A DNA stretch of 49,065 bases from Acidimicrobiaceae bacterium (GTDB taxonomy: Bacteria; Actinomycetota; Acidimicrobiia; Acidimicrobiales; RAAP-2): positions 1 to 49,065 of the forward strand of contig PLRX01000142.1 of the NCBI GenBank assembly GCA_003164095.1, read 5' to 3'. A program made the translations under genes and the position numbers. The notes under the pieces were generated by a model, which searched no databases, was not told the origin of the DNA, and worked only from the letters and a program-made list of their open reading frames with translations. Below are positions 9,484 through 49,065 of this stretch, piece by piece. Position 1 is the first letter of the stretch; every line of letters begins with the position of its first letter.

Positions 9484-9942
9484 AGTGGCCGAGTCAGGAG
9501 CGGCCTGTGCGCCGCCCATCCCGACCGCGTCCGGGCCCTCGTGGCCGTGGCCGCGGTGAGCGGCACGTACCGGTTCGCCACGGGCCTGGCGGCCATCGAG
9601 AGCAGCCTCATGGCGAGCGGCTTCGGCGGCTGGGTGCTCCACGAGCTGGCGGAGGACGTGCCGAAGGACCTCGTGCGTTCCACGCTGCGCCAGGAGAGGA
9701 GCCTGACGCGCCAGGAGATCGCCACGCTGGCGGCACACGTCTGGGAGGACCCCGACAAGCGTGACTTCGTGCTCTCGCTGTCAGCGACCCTGTCGGGTCG
9801 AAACGCCGGTCTGCGCAACGACCAGGACCGCTTCCCTCGGCTCGACGACGTCGGACTCGGCGCAGTCCGTGCACCGACGCTGCTCGTCCACGGGACGGCC
9901 GACAGCGGCGTCGGGATCGGCCCTCAGGGGCGCCGGGCGTAG
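9484..9942 (+). pseudogene. Alpha/beta-hydrolase remnant, truncated at both ends
   Basis: The frame reads GLCAAHPDRVRALVAVAAVSG, the helix and strand that normally follow the nucleophile elbow of an alpha/beta-hydrolase, and continues to APTLLVHGTAD, the strand carrying the catalytic Asp. The N-terminal third with oxyanion hole and nucleophile Ser is missing; the GGDEF-EAL gene ends only 83 bp upstream. After HGTAD the homology stops and the frame ends in GRRA at 9942 without the catalytic His. The last 19 bp overlap the end of the convergent NlpC/P60 gene. This is best read as decay after rearrangement. A GTG at 9541 could start a 133-aa product, but it would lack the Ser and His needed for activity. 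Confidence 0.6.
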
Positions 9943-11162
9943 GGCATGACCTGGCTCATGCTCCACTGGTCGAGGGTGTTCAGCTGGACCTGGTCACCGG
10001 TCGCCTCGACGATCCGACCCCCGCCCACATAGATGGCCGTGTGGTACACGGTGGTCCAGTCGGCCGAGTTGGTACCCCAGAAGACGAGGTCACCCGCCTC
10101 GAGCTGGTCGAACGTTATCTGGGCCCCCGCCGTGTGGTACTGGTCGTCCGCCACCCGGGCGAAGGAGACGCCGACCCCGTGGACCCAGGACGCCAGGGCC
10201 AGCCCGGAGCAGTCGTAGCCCACCGGTCCGTTGCCGCCCCAGATGTACGGCTTGCCCAGCTGCTGGAAGGCGAAAAGGACGGCCTGGTCTCCCGGTGTGA
10301 GGGGCTCGAACAGGAGTGTCTCGGGCGCGAGGGTCTGGCCGGTCGCGCTGCCGAATGCCTGTGCGGTCCCGTTCTGCTGCACGATCCAGTAGCCGGCGTC
10401 GCCCGACGCCGGAACAACCTTCCTGACCGGCTCCCACGCCGACCCCACGGCGGAGCCGTAGAAGCCGGCGTTGCCGAAGGCGAACACCCCGCCGTCGCGT
10501 GCCACCATCCAGTAGCCGTGCCCGTTGTCGGTGCGGGCCAGCCCGACGATCGGCTGGCGCAGGGTGAGGTTGCCGGTCGAACCGTAGAAGCCGGCGTCGC
10601 CGAAGGCGAACACCCCGCCGTCACTCGCCACCAACCAGTAGCCCCGACCGTCGGCGGTGGCGGTCATGGCCACGATCGGCTGGTTGAGCACCAGGCTCCC
10701 GGTCGAGCCGTAGAAGCTGGCGTCACCGAAGCTGAACACGCCGCCGTCACTGGCCACCAACCAGTAGCCCCGGTCGTCGGGCGTCTGGGCCAGGCCGACG
10801 ATCGGCTGGTTGAGCACGAGGTTGCCGGTCGATCCGTGGTAGCCGGCCGAGCCGTAGGCGAACACCCCGCCGTCACTGGCCACCAGCCAGTACCCGGTGA
10901 GTGCATGGTCGCTGACCGCGCTCACCAACGGCCGGTTGAGCGGTCCGGTCGGCGAGCCGTAGGAGGGGACGCCGTAGGGCTCCACGGCGCCCGAGGGGGT
11001 GAACAGCCAGAAATTGCCCCGCACCCCGGTCAGGGCCGTGTGTGGGGCCGGCGCGGCCCCGGCGTGCGATGTGCCTGCCGCCACCGGTCCGAGTGTCAGT
11101 GCGGCGGCAACCGCCACCATCACGCCGATCCACCTGCTCAGACTGATCCGACCCGTGTGCAT
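9924..11162 (-). CDS. Secreted repeat protein with C-terminal NlpC/P60 peptidase
   Basis: 412 aa. Signal peptide about 1-37 (WIGVMVAVAAALTLG..., cut near AGA-AP). Residues 48-280 hold about six tandem repeats of about 42 aa, the central ones reading GYWLVASDGGVFAFGDAGF; the length and periodic glycines suggest blades of a beta-propeller. Residues 290-412 are an NlpC/P60 domain with Cys318 in YDCSG and His374 in YHTAIY, so an active cell-wall gamma-D-glutamyl-type endopeptidase or amidase is expected. It acts outside the membrane on peptidoglycan; the repeats probably bind wall polymer or a partner. The GYWLVASDGGVF repeat is, from memory, abundant in Acidimicrobiia secretomes. Confidence 0.88.
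   Translation of the reverse strand: MHTGRISLSRWIGVMVAVAAALTLGPVAAGTSHAGAAPAPHTALTGVRGNFWLFTPSGAVEPYGVPSYGSPTGPLNRPLVSAVSDHALTGYWLVASDGGVFAYGSAGYHGSTGNLVLNQPIVGLAQTPDDRGYWLVASDGGVFSFGDASFYGSTGSLVLNQPIVAMTATADGRGYWLVASDGGVFAFGDAGFYGSTGNLTLRQPIVGLARTDNGHGYWMVARDGGVFAFGNAGFYGSAVGSAWEPVRKVVPASGDAGYWIVQQNGTAQAFGSATGQTLAPETLLFEPLTPGDQAVLFAFQQLGKPYIWGGNGPVGYDCSGLALASWVHGVGVSFARVADDQYHTAGAQITFDQLEAGDLVFWGTNSADWTTVYHTAIYVGGGRIVEATGDQVQLNTLDQWSMSQVMPYARRP
10326..11021 (-). repeat. About six tandem 126-bp (42-aa) coding repeats
   Basis: Inside the NlpC/P60 gene. The three central units share long stretches at DNA level, e.g. aaccagtagccccg and cggtcgaaccgtagaagc on the plus strand. The first and last units are degenerate, as is usual at the edges of a repeat array. 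Confidence 0.85.
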
Positions 11163-11184
11163 CGTTCGACCCCTCCGACACGAG

Positions 11185-11234
11185 GTGGTCCGGTGACCAC
11201 ACTCAGCGTGTTCAGACTACCACCCTGCGTGGTA
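11185..11234. promoter_or_regulatory. Two inverted repeats upstream of the NlpC/P60 gene
   Basis: GTGGTC-cggt-GACCAC at 11185-11200 and TACCAC-cctgc-GTGGTA at 11218-11234 are perfect 6-bp inverted repeats with closely related arms. They lie in the 113-bp gap between the SDR stop (11276) and the NlpC/P60 start (11162). One may terminate SDR transcription; the similarity of the arms suggests two sites for one regulator. Minus-strand TAGTCT nearby could be the -10. Confidence 0.35.
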
Positions 11235-41813: not shown

Positions 41814-41861
41814 ATGAGCAGTTCAACGATGACCTCGAGGGACCAAGGGGAGCGATCGTGA
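41814..41861 (+). CDS. 15-residue upstream ORF coupled to the PstS-like gene
   Basis: ATG 41814 has a strong GGAGGAGACAGGAA site before it; MSSSTMTSRDQGERS then TGA at 41859-41861, which overlaps the GTG start (41858) of the next gene. The AGGGGAG for that GTG lies inside this ORF. Of the small ORFs in the window this has the best ribosome-binding site. A coupling or attenuating leader peptide is plausible. Confidence 0.4.
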   Translation: MSSSTMTSRDQGERS

Positions 41862-43030
41862 AGACCAAGCACAGGCTTCTGAAAGTTGGACTGATCGGCG
41901 TGGCGGCAGTCACGATCCCGTTGATCGGCGCCGGACAGGCGTTCGCGGACTATGCGCCCCAGGCGGGCGACGTGGTCGGCGTGGGTGGGGACACCCCCCA
42001 GTACGCGTTGCAGTTCGGCGCAGACGGTGACTACAACGGCGATGCCGGGTACAACCAGGCTGGTGCCTACAACCGGCTGGTGACCTTCAACGCCACCGCT
42101 GACGCCAACGGCCGCTCCGCTTACGGGCAGGGCAGCTCGGAGACGACACCGGTCCCGTTGAACCCGACGGATGTGCTCCGTGCCGGTACCTACCCCGTCC
42201 AGCGGGTCCAGAGCAGCGGTGCCGCCATCACGGCATTCCTGGCGGACAAGAGCAACCCGGAGACGATCAACTTCATCTTCAGTGCCAGCCCGCCCACGGC
42301 GGCTCAGCAGAGCACGGCCTCCTCCAACGGGTGGAGCTATCTGCACGTCGTCGAGATCGGGACGGACTCGGTGCAGATCGCCGCGGACACCACGACCAAC
42401 GCGCCGGCCGGGCTGTCCGTCGCCGACCTGCTCAACATCTACGACGGCACGTACACCAAGTGGAGCCAGATCCCGGGTAACTCGACGGGCTCGTCGGCCA
42501 CCATCATCCCGTTGATCCCACAGAACACCTCGTCGATCTACAAGACGCTGGTGGCGGACCTGAAGACGGCGAACGGTGGTACCGCGGTGACGCTGGCGAG
42601 TGACGTCCAGACGGTCGAGCAGAACGACCCGACGGCCATCACCTCGCTGGGCGCCAACGCGGCCAACGCCATCGTGCCGTTCTCGGCGGCCCGCCTGGCG
42701 CTGTGGAACAACGGCTACTTCCACAACCCGGCCACGGTGTTCCCCGGTTCGTCCACACCGCTGACTCCCGGCGTGTCGCTGCTGTCCGGGGCCACGGGTG
42801 ACGGGACCGTGTACGCGAGCCCGATCACGGACTACGTGCTCTTCCGGCAGAGCGATGCGGCCTCGGCGTCGCCGTTCCAGCCCGGTGGCTCGCTGAACTG
42901 GGTGCAGACCCTGTTCTCCAACCCCGGCGGGTCGTCGCCGTTCTTCGCCAAGCCCCTCGGCAAGTCGCTGGTCGCGGCCTCGGGGGTCACGCCGAACTAC
43001 GTCGACCTGGGCGACTACTCGGCCGGCTGA
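41858..43030 (+). CDS. PstS-like periplasmic-binding-fold protein, secreted
   Basis: 390 aa from GTG 41858. Signal peptide about 1-31, cut at AFA-DY; no lipobox, so it is released or held by partners. PBP fold: GVGGDTPQYALQFGADGDYN, INFIFSASPPT, then LSVADLLNIYDGTYTKWSQIPG, the W-S-x-I region shared with phosphate-binding PstS proteins, and IIPLIPQNTSSIYKTL. Residue-level phosphate contacts are not all recognisable. No pstC/A/B genes are nearby, so this is probably not part of a standard phosphate importer. It stands first in a run of secreted proteins and ends at a strong hairpin. Confidence 0.72.
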   Translation: MKTKHRLLKVGLIGVAAVTIPLIGAGQAFADYAPQAGDVVGVGGDTPQYALQFGADGDYNGDAGYNQAGAYNRLVTFNATADANGRSAYGQGSSETTPVPLNPTDVLRAGTYPVQRVQSSGAAITAFLADKSNPETINFIFSASPPTAAQQSTASSNGWSYLHVVEIGTDSVQIAADTTTNAPAGLSVADLLNIYDGTYTKWSQIPGNSTGSSATIIPLIPQNTSSIYKTLVADLKTANGGTAVTLASDVQTVEQNDPTAITSLGANAANAIVPFSAARLALWNNGYFHNPATVFPGSSTPLTPGVSLLSGATGDGTVYASPITDYVLFRQSDAASASPFQPGGSLNWVQTLFSNPGGSSPFFAKPLGKSLVAASGVTPNYVDLGDYSAG

Positions 43031-43059
43031 TCGACCAGCACACCGGCTGACCGGGGTCT

Positions 43060-43100
43060 CCGGACCGGGCGTGGATGACCGCACCCCACGCCCGGTCCGG
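43060..43100 (+). terminator. Strong hairpin after the PstS-like gene
   Basis: A perfect 15-bp stem: 43060-43074 (CCGGACCGGGCGTGG) pairs with 43086-43100 across an 11-nt loop, 30 bp after the stop. No T run. Confidence 0.7.
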
Positions 43101-43170
43101 CAAGGCCCTTGGCCCAACGCGCCCGGACAGCCCCGTGCGACTCCTGCCATCGACGCAGCGCGCACCCCAT

Positions 43171-43210
43171 CACGCAGTGCCTGACTCACCCACGCAGCAC
43201 CTGACTCGAA
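43171..43210 (+). repeat. 20-bp tandem direct repeat upstream of the WxL-like gene
   Basis: cacgcag-NN-cctgactc occurs at 43171-43187 and 43191-43207, a 20-bp period with two mismatches in the core. It lies about 55-90 bp before the ATG and could be a pair of regulator sites. Confidence 0.5.
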
Positions 43211-43263
43211 GCACTCCATGCGGCGCCCCGACCCGGGCGTCCGACACGAAAGAAGGAAGCACC

Positions 43264-45048
43264 ATGAAGAAGTTCATCCGATCGATTGCGCTGGTGGCCA
43301 CGGCCACCGTCGCAGCCGGATCGCTGGTCGCCGGTCTCGGCGGCGTAGCGCACGCCGGCACAGCACCACCATGGGAGCCGGACGCCAGCTCCGTCGGCGG
43401 CCTGGCATTCTTCAACACCGCCGGTCAGCAGATCACCGGTGGCAACCTGACCGACTCACCCATCGCCGCGTATGTCGAGGGTGCCTCGACGGTCCGCGCC
43501 GGTGACCAGAAGGCCACGCTGTACGGCTACCTCCCTGTGGCCGGCACTGCGCCGGGCACGTGGTCCGGTGAGGCCCTCGGGTCGTCGACCACGTACCCGA
43601 ACACGTCGGCTCCCGCCCCGTTGAACACCGCCACCTTGCCGGTCGAGACCGGTTCCAGCGGTGACGAGACAGTGGCCACGCTCGAGGCCGACCTGCCCAA
43701 CACCAACTCCGCCGGAAGTGGCTACGCTGGTCTCTACCAGCTCCGGCTGAAGACCACGGCGACCGGCAAGTCCCCGAACACCACCTATGACTCGGCCGAC
43801 ATCCAGATCACCGGCAGCACTTGGTCGGTTGTCTACACGGCTCAGACGACGACGGCGACGACCACCACACTGGCGGTCACTCCGGGCAGCCCCCAGGTCG
43901 CCGGCACCAACGAGACACTGACAGCCACGGTCAGCCCGGCTGCCGCCACCGGTACGGTGCAGTTCGAGGACGGGACCACCGCGATCGGCTCCCCGGTCGC
44001 AGTCACGGGTGGCACGGCCTCGACGACGACGTCGGCGTTGCCCGTCGGAACGGACAACCTCAGCGCGGTGTTCACCCCGACAGTGGTCGCAGCTCCGTTC
44101 GCCACCTACAGCGGCTCGACCGGAACGGCTTCGTTCACGGTGAGCCCGACGCCCGCCGCCAACACGGTCACGGCACTGGCGATCAACCCGACCACGGCCG
44201 CCGCCGACACTTCGGTGGCACTTACGGCATCGGTCGCCTCGGGTGGCTCGGCGCTCGCCTCGGGTGCCGGCCAGGTGTCGTTCTACGACAACGGGACCAG
44301 CACCGCTGACACCGCGACGGGCACACTGCTCGGCACGGTGGCACTGGGCTCCGGTGGAGTCGCGACGCTGGACTACAGCGCCTTCGCCGTCGGCACCCAC
44401 GACATCGTGGCCAGCTTCGCACCGACCAGCCTGGCGACGTACAACGCCTCGCTGTCGCTGTCCCTGCCGTTCGTGGCGACCACCCCGCTGTACACGCCCG
44501 ACCCGCAGACGGTGAACGTGAGCATCCCCTCCGGAACGCTCACGATCACGACGCCCTACGGCCCGTCGAACCCGTTCAACCTGGGTACGGCAGTGCTGGA
44601 CCCCGCTGACTCGAAGTTCACGGCCAGTGCCCAGTTCGGCACCCCGGGGACGGATGGGACCAATGCCGGTGGTGTGACCATCACCGACACCCGTGCCGGT
44701 CAGCAGGGTTGGACGGCATCCGCCGTGTCGAGCAACTTCACCGACGGCGCCGTTCCGACGCCCGACGTGATCAATGCCCAGGACCTGACGTTCACCAACG
44801 TCCAGGCCCAGTACATCACGGGCAATGCGCTCCAGACCGGGGTCCTGACGTCGAACATCGGCAACAGCGCCATCTACGGCCCGACGGCCACCGGCACGGA
44901 CGGCCTGGGCGGTACGCACCCGTTCGCCACCGCCCCCGTCGGTGGGAGTGACGGATCGGTGTTCATCAACGGTCTGCTCACGCTGGTCGCACCGACCTCC
45001 ACGCCGTCCGGCCAGTACACGGCAACCATCACCTTCACCATCTCGTAA
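43264..45048 (+). CDS. Secreted Ig-repeat protein with WxL-like C-terminal domain
   Basis: 594 aa from ATG 43264 (AGAAGGAAG upstream). Signal peptide 1-32 (AHA-GT). Residues 35-195 form a domain shared with the proteins at 46417 and 47481, starting PPWEPDASSVGGLAFFN and ending TWSVVY. Two bacterial Ig-like (Big_3_5-type) repeats follow at about 196-295 and 296-410. The last 180 residues contain ITDTRAGQQGWTASAVSSNF (Trp483) and end with GQYTATITFTIS. In low-GC Gram-positive WxL proteins the corresponding places read GWTLxA and TxTWTL; here W-T-A and F-T-I, so this looks like a divergent WxL domain. Expected role: non-covalent attachment to peptidoglycan or to the DUF916-like partner at 45284. 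Confidence 0.72.
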   Translation: MKKFIRSIALVATATVAAGSLVAGLGGVAHAGTAPPWEPDASSVGGLAFFNTAGQQITGGNLTDSPIAAYVEGASTVRAGDQKATLYGYLPVAGTAPGTWSGEALGSSTTYPNTSAPAPLNTATLPVETGSSGDETVATLEADLPNTNSAGSGYAGLYQLRLKTTATGKSPNTTYDSADIQITGSTWSVVYTAQTTTATTTTLAVTPGSPQVAGTNETLTATVSPAAATGTVQFEDGTTAIGSPVAVTGGTASTTTSALPVGTDNLSAVFTPTVVAAPFATYSGSTGTASFTVSPTPAANTVTALAINPTTAAADTSVALTASVASGGSALASGAGQVSFYDNGTSTADTATGTLLGTVALGSGGVATLDYSAFAVGTHDIVASFAPTSLATYNASLSLSLPFVATTPLYTPDPQTVNVSIPSGTLTITTPYGPSNPFNLGTAVLDPADSKFTASAQFGTPGTDGTNAGGVTITDTRAGQQGWTASAVSSNFTDGAVPTPDVINAQDLTFTNVQAQYITGNALQTGVLTSNIGNSAIYGPTATGTDGLGGTHPFATAPVGGSDGSVFINGLLTLVAPTSTPSGQYTATITFTIS

Positions 45049-45060
45049 CACCCCGCCCGA

Positions 45061-45095
45061 GGGGACCGGCGGCACGCAGTGTGCCCCCGGTCCCC
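45061..45095 (+). terminator. Hairpin after the WxL-like gene
   Basis: GGGGACCGG-c-GGCAC, loop gcagt, GTGCC-c-CCGGTCCCC: 14 bp of stem with one C/C mismatch, 13 bp after the stop. Confidence 0.7.
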
Positions 45096-45254
45096 GACGG
45101 TGACCCGGGGGAGCGGGCGGTGGCCTACACGGCCGACGCCCGCTCCTTCGGGCATTCAGGAACGGCAGCCGGCGCGGCGCCGAGCCCGAGTGCACCTGGA
45201 GCGGGGTCCGAAGACGGCGGCCCTCGGCCGTTCGTCACCCCGCCTAGCCAATGA

Positions 45255-45283
45255 CCTACTATTACGGTAGATTTACTCCTCTC
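45255..45283 (+). promoter_or_regulatory. AT-rich leaderless promoter of the anchor operon
   Basis: The run cctactattacggtagattt is unusually AT-rich. TTTACT (45272-45277), CCTCTC, ATG 45284 fits a leaderless start. TACTAT and TAGATT are alternative -10 boxes. Confidence 0.4.
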
Positions 45284-46420
45284 ATGAACCACCTTCCTGC
45301 CGGCCACGGCGCACCGTCCTCAACCGACGGCCGGCATTTCGCCGGCCGCGGCGCCGTGCTGCGCCGGTCGGCCCTGCTGCTCGCCCCGGTGGTGGCCCTC
45401 CTGGTCGCCCTTCTCGGAACCACGGCACCCGCCTCCGCCGCCCCGGTGCCCGCCTCCCGGGTGACCTTCGGGATCGAGCCGGCCTCGGCGACCGCCCCCG
45501 ACGGCCGGGCGAACTTCAATTTCGAGATGACGCCCGGCGCAGTGCTCTTCGACCACATCGCCATCGTGAATTACTCGGACACCCCTCTCACCTTGCAGCT
45601 GTACGCCACCGACGCCCTCGAGACGTCGAGCGGGGGCTTCGGGCTCCTCCAGCCGGGGGTGACGCCCACCGGTGTCGGCGCCTGGGTCAGCATCCCGGCG
45701 AGCGCGTCCTCGGTCCAGGTGCCCGCCGAGCGATCCACCGGGCCCGGCTACGTCATCGTTCCGATGACGGTGCGCGTGCCGGTGAAGGCCATACCGGGTG
45801 ACCACGTCGGAGGCGTCATCGCATCGCTCAGGACGGTCGGCACCAACGCGACGGGCCAGACGGTGGTCCTGAACCAGCGGATCGGTTCCCGGGTCTACGT
45901 CCGGGTGGCGGGCCAACTGTCGCCGCAGCTCACCCTGTCCAGCCCCCGCGCCACCTTCAGCGGCTCGTCGAGCCCGGTCGGCACGGGCAGGGTCAAGGTG
46001 AGCTACGTCGTCACCAATTCGGGCAATGTCGACCTGGCCGTGCACGACCAGCACGTGTCGGTCTCCGGCCTGATCGACGACACCCATACCGCGCAACTGG
46101 GCAACATCCAGTTGCTGCTACCCGGCACGTCGGTCACCCAGAGCGTCGTGATCAGCGGTGTATGGCCCCAGTTCCGTCTCCACCAGACCGTGTCGGCGCA
46201 ACCCGTCGTCCTGGATGGTTCCGCGGGCGACCTCTCGCCGGTCGGCGCCAGCAGCACGCTGTGGGCGGTGCCGTGGCTGTTGGTGATCATCGTCCTCGTC
46301 CTGGTGGTTGCCGTAGTTGCCTGGGTGCGCCGACGCCGGCACAAGGTGCCTGCGGCGGACCCGACGGTCGGGGACGGAACGGTCACCGACGACGCCGTCA
46401 AGACGGAGGTGCCCGCATGA
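45284..46420 (+). CDS. Membrane-anchored DUF916/WxL_PGBD-like protein
   Basis: 378 aa from ATG 45284; ATG 45251 would add 11 residues but overlaps the promoter. Long signal peptide, cut near ASA-AP (about residue 53). The ectodomain begins VTFGIEPASATAPDGRANF and continues VLFDHIAIVNYSDTPLTLQLYATDA, VSIPASASSVQVPAERS and GDHVGGVIASL; this is the wording of DUF916 (WxL protein peptidoglycan-binding domain). A second beta-sandwich follows (VKVSYVVTNSGNVDLAVH), like the DUF3324 that accompanies it in Firmicutes. One membrane helix (WLLVIIVLVLVVAVVAWV) and a short basic then acidic tail. It would hold WxL-type proteins at the wall. Its stop overlaps the next start (ATGA). Confidence 0.78.
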   Translation: MNHLPAGHGAPSSTDGRHFAGRGAVLRRSALLLAPVVALLVALLGTTAPASAAPVPASRVTFGIEPASATAPDGRANFNFEMTPGAVLFDHIAIVNYSDTPLTLQLYATDALETSSGGFGLLQPGVTPTGVGAWVSIPASASSVQVPAERSTGPGYVIVPMTVRVPVKAIPGDHVGGVIASLRTVGTNATGQTVVLNQRIGSRVYVRVAGQLSPQLTLSSPRATFSGSSSPVGTGRVKVSYVVTNSGNVDLAVHDQHVSVSGLIDDTHTAQLGNIQLLLPGTSVTQSVVISGVWPQFRLHQTVSAQPVVLDGSAGDLSPVGASSTLWAVPWLLVIIVLVLVVAVVAWVRRRRHKVPAADPTVGDGTVTDDAVKTEVPA

Positions 46421-47484
46421 TCCGGGGCGCAGCCTTCCCGTCGATCCGCCGGCTCCTCGTGGTCGGTGGGATCGCGCTGGTCGCCCTCGGTGGGTACGCC
46501 GGCACCGCCGGCACCGCCGGCGCCGCCACGACGGCGCCGTACACCGACCCGAACGCTGTGGGGACCATCGGCCTGTGCGACCAGTCGGGCCAGCAGGTCA
46601 CGAGCGGAAGCACGACCGCCGCGCCGTTCGCCTGGCTCGCCGTGTCGACCACCCCGGCCCAGGCGCCGTACGACAACGACTACCGCACGGCCATCCTCCT
46701 CGCCTACCAACCTCAGCAGGGCCTGACGCCGGGTGAGTGGAGCGGGGCGGAGCTCACGGCGTCCTCCCGGTACACGAATGCCCAGGTCCCGATGGCGGCG
46801 GCCACCAGCGGGGACGACTCCCTGGCCGACTTCATGGACAACTACCACCCGCGCTGGGACGGGTTCCTCCAGCTCCGGATGTACCTGGGCACCGCCGATC
46901 AGCCCCAGTACTCGCTGCACTACCCGTCACTCGACATCCAGGTGGCGGGCGACACCTGGCACGCCGTCGGTGGCGGGACGGTGAACTGCAAGGCGGGCAC
47001 CGCCGAGTCGATCGAGAGCATCGTCCTGCCCGCCGCCACCACCACGACCTCGCCGGGCAGCACCGCCAGCCACGGCAGCGGCGCCAGCGGCAGCAGCGCC
47101 GTCTCGGGCTCGGTCTCCAACCCCACGTCGTCGTCGGGTGCGACGGCGACGGGCGGTGGCGCGGCGACACCGGTGGCGGCCACGCAGTCCGGCTCCTCGC
47201 ACGGATGGCTCGCCATCGCGTTGCTCGTGCTCCTCGTGGCCGCAGCCGGCTGGTTCCTCGTGCGCAGGCTCCGACCGGGCACCCGGGGTGGATCCCCGGG
47301 CACCGACCCGGACGCCACTGATCCGGACGCCGCCGAGGCGGACGTGCCCGGGTCCGGCCAGTCGGCCCCCGCGTCAGACCCGGCCCCGCCCGAAACCACC
47401 CACCACGACCCACTCCGGTCCCACGAGACCGCCAATTCGTCAAGCAGTGCAACACCTACATCCACGAAAGGCCAACAGCCATGA
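46417..47484 (+). CDS. Single-pass membrane protein with the shared surface N-domain
   Basis: 355 aa. Signal peptide with Gly/Ala-rich end (GTAGTAGAA-TT). Residues 37-190 are a divergent copy of the domain in the proteins at 43264 and 47481: DPNAVGTIGLCDQSGQQVTSG, TPGEWSGAELTASSRYTN, SGDDSLADFM, GFLQLRMYLG, YPSLDIQVAGDTWHAV. Two Cys in this copy could bond. Then a Ser/Thr/Gly linker of about 70 residues, a membrane helix (GWLAIALLVLLVAAAGWFLV) and an acidic, Pro-rich cytoplasmic tail of about 70 residues. It is both preceded and followed by 4-bp ATGA overlaps, so all three proteins of this operon are made together. Unknown function; probably an anchor or organiser. Confidence 0.68.
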   Translation: MIRGAAFPSIRRLLVVGGIALVALGGYAGTAGTAGAATTAPYTDPNAVGTIGLCDQSGQQVTSGSTTAAPFAWLAVSTTPAQAPYDNDYRTAILLAYQPQQGLTPGEWSGAELTASSRYTNAQVPMAAATSGDDSLADFMDNYHPRWDGFLQLRMYLGTADQPQYSLHYPSLDIQVAGDTWHAVGGGTVNCKAGTAESIESIVLPAATTTTSPGSTASHGSGASGSSAVSGSVSNPTSSSGATATGGGAATPVAATQSGSSHGWLAIALLVLLVAAAGWFLVRRLRPGTRGGSPGTDPDATDPDAAEADVPGSGQSAPASDPAPPETTHHDPLRSHETANSSSSATPTSTKGQQP

Positions 47485-49065
47485 GGAATCCCATCCGTCG
47501 CTCCACGTTCCGGGCGGTCGTCGTCGCCCTTCTTGGCGCCGTGTTGGCCGCAGGTGCCGTGCTCACCGCTGTCGTCCCCCCCGCCGGGGCCGCCTCCGGC
47601 AACCCGCCCTGGGAGCCGGACGCGAACTCCGTCGGCGGCCTCGCGTTCTACAACGCCGCCGGCCAGCAGATCACCGGGGGCAATCTGACCGACTCGCCCG
47701 TGGCTGCCTACGTGGAAGGCGCGGGCACCATCCGCGCCGGCGACACCAAGGCCACGCTGTACGGGTACTCGCCGGTCGCCGGCACGGCACCCGGCACGTG
47801 GAACGGTGAGGCCCTCGGCTCGTCCACCACCTACCCGAACGCGTCCGCGCCGGCGCCCCTCAACACGTCCACGCTGCCGGTGGAGACCGGTGCCAGCGGC
47901 GACGAGGACATCGCCACCCTCATGTCCGACCTGCCCAACAACAACTCCTCGGGCAGCGGCTACGCGAACCTCTACCAGCTGCGTCTCAAGTCGACCCAGG
48001 CCGGTCAGCAGCCGAACGTGAAGTACGACTCGGCGGACATCTCGATCGACTCCACCGCAGGCACCTGGTCCGTGGTCTATCCCGCGGTGACGACGACCGC
48101 GACCGCGACCACCCTGACGGCCGCACCGACCAGCCCACAGGCCTCGGGCACCTCGGTGACGCTGACCGCCACCGTGAGCCCGTCCGCCCCGGGGACCGTC
48201 CAGTTCGAGAACGGCTCCACCGACCTCGGCTCCCCGGTCAACGTGACCGCAGGGGTGGCGGCCTTCACGACCACCGCCCTGCCTGTCGGCGCCCTCACAC
48301 TCCACGCCGTGTACACGCCGGCAGCGTTCAGCGTCTACACCGGGTCGACGGGAAGCACGAGCTTCACCGTGTACACCCCGGTGTCCACCTCGACCATCCT
48401 GACCGCGGCCCCGGTGAGCCCCCAGGTGTCCGGCACGTCCGTGACCCTCACCGCGACCCTCACTCCGTCGGCGGCCACCGGCACCGTCCAGTTCGAGAAC
48501 GGCTCGACCGATCTGGGCTCCCCGGTGACCGTGACCTCGGGCAAGGCGACCACCACGACCACCGCCCTGCCTGTCGGCGCCCTCACACTCCACGCCGTCT
48601 ACCTACCGTCTTCCGGCAGTGAGTACCTCACGTCGACCGGCGACCTGAGCTACACCATCACCAACTCGGCCACGCCCACCACCACCACCCTGACGGTGGC
48701 ACCGGGCACCCCGCAGGTCTTCGGCACCTCGGAGACCCTGACCGCCACGGTCAGCCCGACCGCCACCGGCACCGTCCAGTTCGAGAACGGCGCGGCCGAC
48801 CTCGGCGCCCCCGTCACCGTGACCGCCGGCGTGGCGACCTACACGACCAGCGCCCTGCCGGTCGGCACCCTGACGCTGGGTGCCGTGTTCACCCCGACAT
48901 CGGGCAACGGGTTCAGCGGTTCGAGTGACACGGCCCCGTTCACGATCACGGCGATCGGCACGACCACCGTGCTGACGGTGTCGCCGGCCAGCCCGCAACC
49001 CGTGGGCACCTCGGAGACCCTGACCGCCACCGTGAGCCCCACCGCCACCGGCACCGTCCAGTTCG
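47481..49065 (+). CDS. Large secreted Ig-repeat protein (partial, runs off right edge)
   Basis: 528 codons within the window, no stop. Signal peptide 1-38 (AGA-AS). N-domain 40-195 almost identical in wording to that of 43264 (NPPWEPDANSVGGLAFYN ... TWSVVY). Then at least four Ig-like repeats of about 96 aa, each with TLTATVSP, GTVQFENG, LPVGALTLHAVY. Whether it ends in a WxL-like domain, an LPXTG-type signal or more repeats cannot be seen. Likely an extended surface adhesin or fibre subunit co-produced with the two membrane proteins upstream. Confidence 0.78.
   Translation, partial: MRNPIRRSTFRAVVVALLGAVLAAGAVLTAVVPPAGAASGNPPWEPDANSVGGLAFYNAAGQQITGGNLTDSPVAAYVEGAGTIRAGDTKATLYGYSPVAGTAPGTWNGEALGSSTTYPNASAPAPLNTSTLPVETGASGDEDIATLMSDLPNNNSSGSGYANLYQLRLKSTQAGQQPNVKYDSADISIDSTAGTWSVVYPAVTTTATATTLTAAPTSPQASGTSVTLTATVSPSAPGTVQFENGSTDLGSPVNVTAGVAAFTTTALPVGALTLHAVYTPAAFSVYTGSTGSTSFTVYTPVSTSTILTAAPVSPQVSGTSVTLTATLTPSAATGTVQFENGSTDLGSPVTVTSGKATTTTTALPVGALTLHAVYLPSSGSEYLTSTGDLSYTITNSATPTTTTLTVAPGTPQVFGTSETLTATVSPTATGTVQFENGAADLGAPVTVTAGVATYTTSALPVGTLTLGAVFTPTSGNGFSGSSDTAPFTITAIGTTTVLTVSPASPQPVGTSETLTATVSPTATGTVQF
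48088..49065 (+). repeat. Tandem 288-bp Ig-domain coding repeats
   Basis: The block starting ccaccgccct recurs at 48271 and 48559, and its equivalent at 48847, an exact 288-bp period. The first two copies are identical over about 40 bp (accgccctgcctgtcggc onward) except for one base. This suggests recent duplication or gene conversion. Confidence 0.8.

Follow-up and report, generated by a model that had tools for sequence, protein, structure and literature searches.

The window analysed here is a stretch of 49,065 nucleotides from an Acidimicrobiaceae bacterium, and it is a whole contig (G000:C146, 1-49065) of an assembly of 3.7 Mb in 163 contigs that is ~96% complete. Its last five genes encode a secreted PstS-like binding protein (PstS1), a WxL protein, a WxLIP-like protein, a membrane protein and a giant protein with immunoglobulin (Ig)-like repeats. 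We found that this set continues on another contig into genes for a Pst-type ATP-binding cassette (ABC) transporter and a sortase-like protein. We give about an even chance to reading the five genes as the outer-wall half of a gene cluster dedicated to an ABC transporter of the Pst family, in which a phosphate-type ligand would be captured and handed over across the cell wall; import, the ligand and physical contact between the components are what we infer from sequence. A first-pass annotation had described five consecutive plus-strand open reading frames (ORFs), the last three joined by ATGA overlaps, and all five ORFs and both overlaps (46417-46420 and 47481-47484) are present. It missed the transporter and the sortase-like protein, and the gene that it called PstS-like is a part of the Pst cluster, not a mere neighbour. 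The gene caller in our scripts was crude and used third-position GC, and families were assigned by hidden Markov model searches of all stop-to-stop frames.

The two halves of the cluster are separated by a contig break. The giant gene (47481..49065, +) begins with a copy of an N-terminal domain shared with two of the other proteins, continues with Ig-like repeats (PF16640, E 8.6e-37) and is open at the window end. Since the window is a complete contig, this gene is truncated by the assembly. A search of the same genome with the giant protein found a like repeat running into one other contig end (C127), as well as a closed paralogue on contig C114. On the minus strand of C127 an open-ended frame encodes Ig repeats and then repeats of YWLVxxDGGVF type (L010 7613-9421); we assign it as the other end of the giant protein from this search, the ORFs and the gene order in a relative. 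Downstream of this frame are pstB, pstC, pstA, pstS2, a gene for a large binding protein of 886 residues and the sortase-like gene. The ends of C146 and C127 have 22 identical bases in common, which alone is weak because the Ig repeat recurs. The possibility that the two contigs are unrelated was ruled out: both break in the same Ig repeat with the same reading direction, and the order of genes in locus L163 decides. This locus, from an Acidimicrobiaceae metagenome-assembled genome (MAG), has the same 11 genes on one strand at 48-82% identity, in the order PstS1, WxL, WxLIP, shared-domain membrane protein, shared-domain Ig protein, PstB, PstC, PstA, PstS2, large binding protein and sortase-like protein (the first part of the last, inside which the fetched stretch ends). 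Over the aligned parts the first four are 72, 61, 56 and 69% identical to those of the window genome and the Ig protein 48%, measured against the truncated giant protein, while the other six are 76, 82, 67, 66, 58 and 63% identical. The membrane protein counterpart is at 9666-10739, its 69% extending over 174 residues. Because L163 carries both halves contiguously, the junction is settled, and a free-standing adhesion operon of five genes was also ruled out.

The linkage recurs in the order and beyond it. A WxLIP-like protein was found in 33 of 298 genomes of the order, own genome included, a count that rests on the scored part of the first-look candidates, and 33 neighbourhoods were fetched from the other 32 genomes. 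The neighbourhood, to which the first-pass annotation had pointed as a check, is conserved: a WxL-like ORF is present in 24 of the 33, plus the window. Genes of the Pst family adjoin WxL/WxLIP in 11 of the 33 (L043, L045-L053 and L041, the last counted on a PstS1 fragment alone), again plus the window, and this is a lower bound since several neighbourhoods end at contig ends. Seven loci (L045-L048 and L051-L053), joined in thought with the upstream stretches L084-L089 and L091, read pstC-pstA-pstS2-large binding protein-shared-domain proteins-sortase-like-pstB-pstS1-WxL-WxLIP. A scan of GTDB genomes gave 248 relatives of the WxLIP, and the best 80 were kept as named WxLIP loci. WxL is present in 76 of them, and a Pst core, defined as at least two of five strong Pst-core genes, in 24; in three more (L164, L198 and L229) PstS1 adjoins WxL close to a contig end. 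Among the 24 are Streptomyces shenzhenensis, S. olivochromogenes and S. brasiliensis, six Actinokineospora, Actinocrispum, Amycolatopsis, two Catellatospora, Dactylosporangium, Rugosimonospora, Hamadaea, Phytohabitans, Jiangella and Candidatus Microthrix. Loci L229, L240 and L241 are probably not independent of G061:C316, G110:C63 and G192:C33. The sortase-like gene was found in 21 of the 24, and in the other three (L165, L173 and L209) the stretch fetched stops short of where it would be expected. A second class of WxL-WxLIP pairs was seen among L174-L239 (such as L174, L182 and L199) in Micromonospora, Salinispora, Glycomyces and others; these have no Pst core and often lie beside another ABC-type ATPase frame, with weaker matches to the PstB profile (~1e-48).

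In its Pst part the cluster resembles the PstSCAB systems of E. coli and Streptomyces, with PstC, PstA, PstB and PstS-type proteins and the key permease arginines kept. It differs from them in having a separate PstC clade, a PstS2 whose C-terminus has a transmembrane stretch, two additional PstS-type proteins, wall-binding and sortase-like partners and, as a rule, no phoU. The window genome's copies on C127 score 226.3 bits for PstC and 196.9 for PstA (NCBIfam cut-offs 196.45 and 193.45), and PstB, at 329.6, is just under its cut-off of 343.2. PstS2 scores 147.8 bits against TIGR00975, well under the cut-off of 205, and the large binding protein encoded beside it is of the same kind. PstS1, the secreted member (41858..43030, +; 390 aa; PF12849, E 3.8e-13), has a signal peptide by eye and no membrane anchor was seen in it. 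The PstC proteins of the clusters, with or without WxL, form one clade (44 rows, support 100/99) separate from seven other PstC, two of them long-branched, in a tree from which near-copies and L122, L123 and L220 were left out. Transporter residues were read against E. coli K-12 numbering. Arg237 is present in all 45 cluster rows of PstC, Arg220 in 93 of 94 rows of PstA, PstC paralogues among these, and the Glu of GRALGET in all 52 rows of cluster and other proteins together. According to the part of PMC5775613 used here, transport requires PstA Arg220, PstC Arg237 and Glu240; in the E. coli K-12 PstC record the nearest Glu is at 241. At the phosphate site of PstS2, read in 49 rows with near-copies counted, 42 keep Arg135, 43 keep Ser38 and 43 have Asp or Glu at position 56; most clusters are therefore likely to bind phosphate. 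Two genomes that share a genus, G003 and G061, have a response regulator next to the pstC of the cluster, with one small ORF between in G003. This regulator resembles (E 3e-100) the one beside the separate pst locus of G242, and in our reading it may be PhoB-like. The PstB of several relatives (7 loci, for example L045 13586-14851, -) has an N-terminal extension of ~150 residues with no Pfam match; it may resemble a PH domain, a likeness that Pfam does not show.

The sortase-like protein is most like class E sortases and lacks their catalytic residues. PF04203 was matched by 11 of 11 members (E 4.7e-10), the family profile finds solved sortases (best 5uus, E 3.2e-21), and the best NCBIfam model for the window genome's copy is class E sortase (54 bits, cut-off 160). 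This copy has GRS and VTSEG where GHR and TC are expected, so that the catalytic His and Cys are both gone. At a threshold of E 1e-25 the profile picks up 211 of the order's 298 genomes, and most of the proteins found are probably ordinary sortases. Among the 30 best loci, His and Cys are kept in four (L159-L162), whose PstB-profile matches on the opposite strand (1e-22 to 3e-51) we take as unrelated ABC ATPases. Of the remaining 26, 24 have Arg in place of the His, one has Lys and one keeps His, and the Cys column, unaligned in five (L143, L145, L147, L148 and L154), is never Cys in the 21 where it is readable; the L143 copy is the gene seen in L050 and reads LVTS. A Pst-family or shared-domain gene is within 1.5 kb of the sortase-like gene in 25 of these 26, the exception (L154) being at a contig edge. 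All 21 named copies that are readable at both positions have Arg for His and Ala for Cys, and the L163 copy, cut before the Cys, has Lys at the His position. Unlike class E sortases, therefore, every readable Pst-linked copy is without the catalytic Cys, and in nearly all the His is replaced by Arg; an ordinary sortase was thereby ruled out for this gene. A sortase in L045 (1584-2921) keeps GHR and ACHP. Across a phylum sample of 396 genomes, 15 reach E 1e-55 or better, a count made on the profile with residues unread. Many clusters encode a protein ending in an LPxTG/LAxTG-like motif, a hydrophobic stretch and basic residues, as found with a simple pattern that also gave false matches, for instance in PstC frames. 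LAxTG is a class E sortase motif. The pattern marked no such tail in L163, and none was seen by eye in the five genes of the window.

The WxL protein (43264..45048, +; 594 aa) consists of a signal peptide, the shared N-terminal domain, Ig-like domains (PF16640, E 1.6e-16, 2 stretches) and a C-terminal WxL-type domain (44482..45045, +), which was assigned by alignment, PF13731 and an AlphaFold model. The window domain scores 22.3-23.2 bits against PF13731 (E 1e-4 at 23.2), below the cut-off of 25. The family as a whole is recognised better, 16 of 28 members matching at E up to 0.1 (best 2.6e-7). Four Pst-linked WxL proteins gave one score of 25.0, two under 25 and one with no match at 0.01. In the order 26 of 298 genomes match PF13731, own included and 8 above the cut-off, and among 14 control genomes Lactococcus lactis alone does. 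The first motif of the window copy reads TITDTRAGQQGWTASA, with Asp at W-8 and Arg at W-6 as in the WxL proteins of Lactobacillales and Bacillales, a feature given in the part of PMC9772566 used here. W-T-A replaces W-x-L in this motif, and the second (YTATITFTIS; T-F-T-I) has no Trp; the first Trp is the sole invariant motif residue in an alignment of 28 rows. The AlphaFold model of the domain is a beta-sandwich (pLDDT 75.7, pTM 0.72), and its best matches in the PDB are pilin-like at non-decisive scores (best Foldseek E 4.6e-3, 4y2l; best VIA Z 7.7, 6k73), other best neighbours being the N-terminal part of GH123 enzymes. No WxL entry is among the matches listed, and a search with the family profile brought up no solved WxL chain to E 1. 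The WxL-like end proposed from the first reading is thus upheld as a C-terminal domain of WxL type, with a degenerate strict motif and a window copy below the cut-off, and the AlphaFold check proposed with it returned a beta-sandwich with pilin-like neighbours and no WxL structure among those listed.

The WxLIP-like protein (45251..46420, +, although the start may be 45284) has a DUF916-type ectodomain, with a signal peptide and a C-terminal transmembrane helix by eye from the translation. When 32 relatives are combined into a profile, the solved Enterococcus faecium EfmWxLIP1 (9i25, 9i1y) comes up at E 3e-12, the next row being at 0.019. PF06030 (DUF916) is matched by 29 of the 32 at E up to 0.1, and its cut-off of 27.3 is passed by the copies of L045, Streptomyces (L167) and Amycolatopsis (L181); the window copy alone is weak (17.2 bits, E ~0.005). 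PF11797 (DUF3324) has no match in the window copy and matches 1 of 32 members (E 0.0026). The protein had been annotated as DUF916/DUF3324-like, of which the DUF916 part holds and the DUF3324 half is not recognised. An early family (NCS) was dropped when a shared C-terminal part drew WxLIP members into its profile.

A membrane-anchored WxLIP-type ectodomain encoded beside a protein with a C-terminal WxL-type domain recalls the WxL/WxLIP clusters of Lactobacillales and Bacillales. The window set had been taken as their high-GC counterpart with fibre-like subunits of its own, which are still putative, but it is not a standard cluster of this type: it has one WxL protein where those clusters have two, no small WxL protein, one PF13731 match in the assembly, degenerate motifs and no recognised DUF3324. 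It is further set apart by its link to a Pst ABC transporter and a sortase-like protein and by its hosts, which are actinobacteria (cultured actinomycetes and MAGs from bog and sludge). According to the parts of PMC9772566 and PMC10599100 used here, WxL/WxLIP complexes are reported almost solely from Firmicutes, many of them gut bacteria, as adhesion devices. Over 91% of 938 WxL sequences belong to Firmicutes in the part of PMC9772566 cited, and so some from outside this phylum have already been counted. No listing from our searches of the open-licence literature describes WxL/WxLIP, a Pst transporter and a sortase-like protein together. That this wiring is present across Actinomycetota, in the sludge organism Microthrix as well as in Streptomyces and Actinokineospora that can be cultured, suggests that WxL scaffolds may have a second role. 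The gene combination suggests that nutrient capture is organised across the thick cell wall, and the cluster provides an answer, open to testing, to the question of how binding proteins and nutrients may be arranged there. The conserved Cys-less sortase-like protein likewise offers a natural way to test what a sortase fold can do when it does not cut.

In the wall-spanning transporter that we favour, the WxL domain would bind peptidoglycan and be held by WxLIP, and the WxL protein, the shared-domain proteins and free PstS1 would form a scaffold across the thick wall. This scaffold would collect a phosphate-type ligand and pass it to the two membrane-tethered binding proteins and then to PstCAB. 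The sortase-like protein would act without cleaving, as a receptor or an assembly factor, for example for the LPxTG/LAxTG-tailed partners of many relatives. The ligand is probably phosphate in most clusters. A number of findings weigh against this reading. In the window genome's PstS2, Ser38 is changed to Asp, Asp56 to Ser and Arg135 to Gln, Ser139 staying Ser, which makes phosphate binding doubtful there; because of these changes the ligand of the window clade may differ, being another oxyanion or a phosphorylated compound, or PstS2 may have turned structural. The usual RSDGSGT loop was not seen in the strings printed for PstS1 (up to four per row). A further PstC-like locus is present in 11 of 12 genomes checked, G003 showing the cluster copy only, which ruled out the cluster genes as the sole Pst copy in general. 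PhoU was found outside the cluster in 7 of 8 genomes searched (in G003 on the cluster's contig, >40 kb away), while G054 has a PhoU match close to its cluster, and L071 and L250 have PhoU-like ORFs at their edges. As many as 53 of the 80 named WxLIP loci, 6 of them on stretches under 15 kb, have neither Pst core nor PstS1, so WxL/WxLIP does not need Pst. Conversely, no WxL/WxLIP was seen in the stretches fetched around some Pst and sortase-like clusters, which makes it an optional module; among these are the window genome's second Pst-type cluster (L124 387-10509, G000:C147), with a large binding protein and a Cys-less sortase-like protein, and the window-like cluster of G054 (L126). Finally, neither the WxL protein of S. 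shenzhenensis (PF13731) nor the WxLIP of L163, 56% identical to the window copy, (any Pfam family) gave a match at E up to 0.01.

Three rival readings were also weighed. If the five genes made a WxL-type complex for adhesion or biofilm, the Ig-repeat proteins would reach hosts or particles, WxL and WxLIP would anchor them, and the Pst genes would be co-regulated without contact, for example in a phosphate-starvation operon. The giant Ig repeats with their YWLVxxDGGVF-type ends, the adhesive role described for Firmicutes WxL clusters and the predominance of WxL-WxLIP loci without a Pst core all agree with this, and yet it leaves unexplained why two or three PstS-type proteins are present and why linkage of one Pst paralogue with the large binding protein and the sortase-like gene persists across several actinobacterial families in different gene orders. 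We consider it unlikely. The Pst-type part might instead be a sensor or an ATP-driven motor that controls surface-protein assembly, with the sortase-like protein as receptor and no import. Here the transport-critical arginines of PstC and PstA and the PstS2 phosphate loop of most clusters, all kept, argue for transport, against the close association of Cys-less sortase-like genes with Pst-family or shared-domain genes, the degenerate binding sites of PstS1 and of the window clade's PstS2, and the other PstC-like loci of most genomes; we regard this explanation as quite improbable. That WxL/WxLIP cassettes were repeatedly inserted beside a Pst operon with no functional tie seems very improbable to us. 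The gene order does vary among groups and the WxL module is missing from some Pst clusters, but genes are tightly packed on the same strand with ATGA overlaps, and the linkage occurs in 24-27 of 80 named loci and in 11 of 33 neighbourhoods of the order plus the window, in at least three arrangements of the same gene set. Returning to the wall-spanning transporter, its fullest form would be an undescribed ABC importer of monoderm bacteria with a Pst-type permease, three kinds of PstS-like protein, a WxL/WxLIP scaffold and a non-cutting sortase-like protein holding sorting-signal-like tails, retuned in the window clade to a non-phosphate ligand. We put this forward tentatively, as possible rather than probable.

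The shared N-terminal domain, which the first-pass annotation had also noticed, is real. It is found in the WxL protein (43357..43860, +), in the membrane protein (46417..47484, +), where it was recognised by alignment and sits on a C-terminal transmembrane helix, in the giant protein and in the gene on C114, all in the window genome. The copies of the WxL and giant proteins are 81% identical, while that of the membrane protein is 33% identical. Gly67 and Trp156 alone are invariant in an alignment of 22 rows. The Pfam scan gave no convincing family for it, and the AlphaFold model (pLDDT 42.8) was unusable. Relatives carry the domain on the WxL protein and also on other proteins, several of which have a membrane stretch at the C-terminus; some domains of relatives may resemble neocarzinostatin, for which Pfam gives no match. 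In S. shenzhenensis (L167 11763-12701) and Amycolatopsis (L181 11568-12749) an apparently different N-terminal domain is repeated on the WxL protein and on LAATG/LASTG-tailed proteins, and so the domain may be exchangeable between groups. The C114 gene (L011 4590-6023, -) is a paralogue of the giant protein that stands by itself: it has the shared domain (70% identical) and Ig domains, and no Pst gene is in the stretch fetched around it. A separate protein in the window (9927-11216, -) has YWLVxxDGGVF-type repeats like those at the end of the giant protein on C127.

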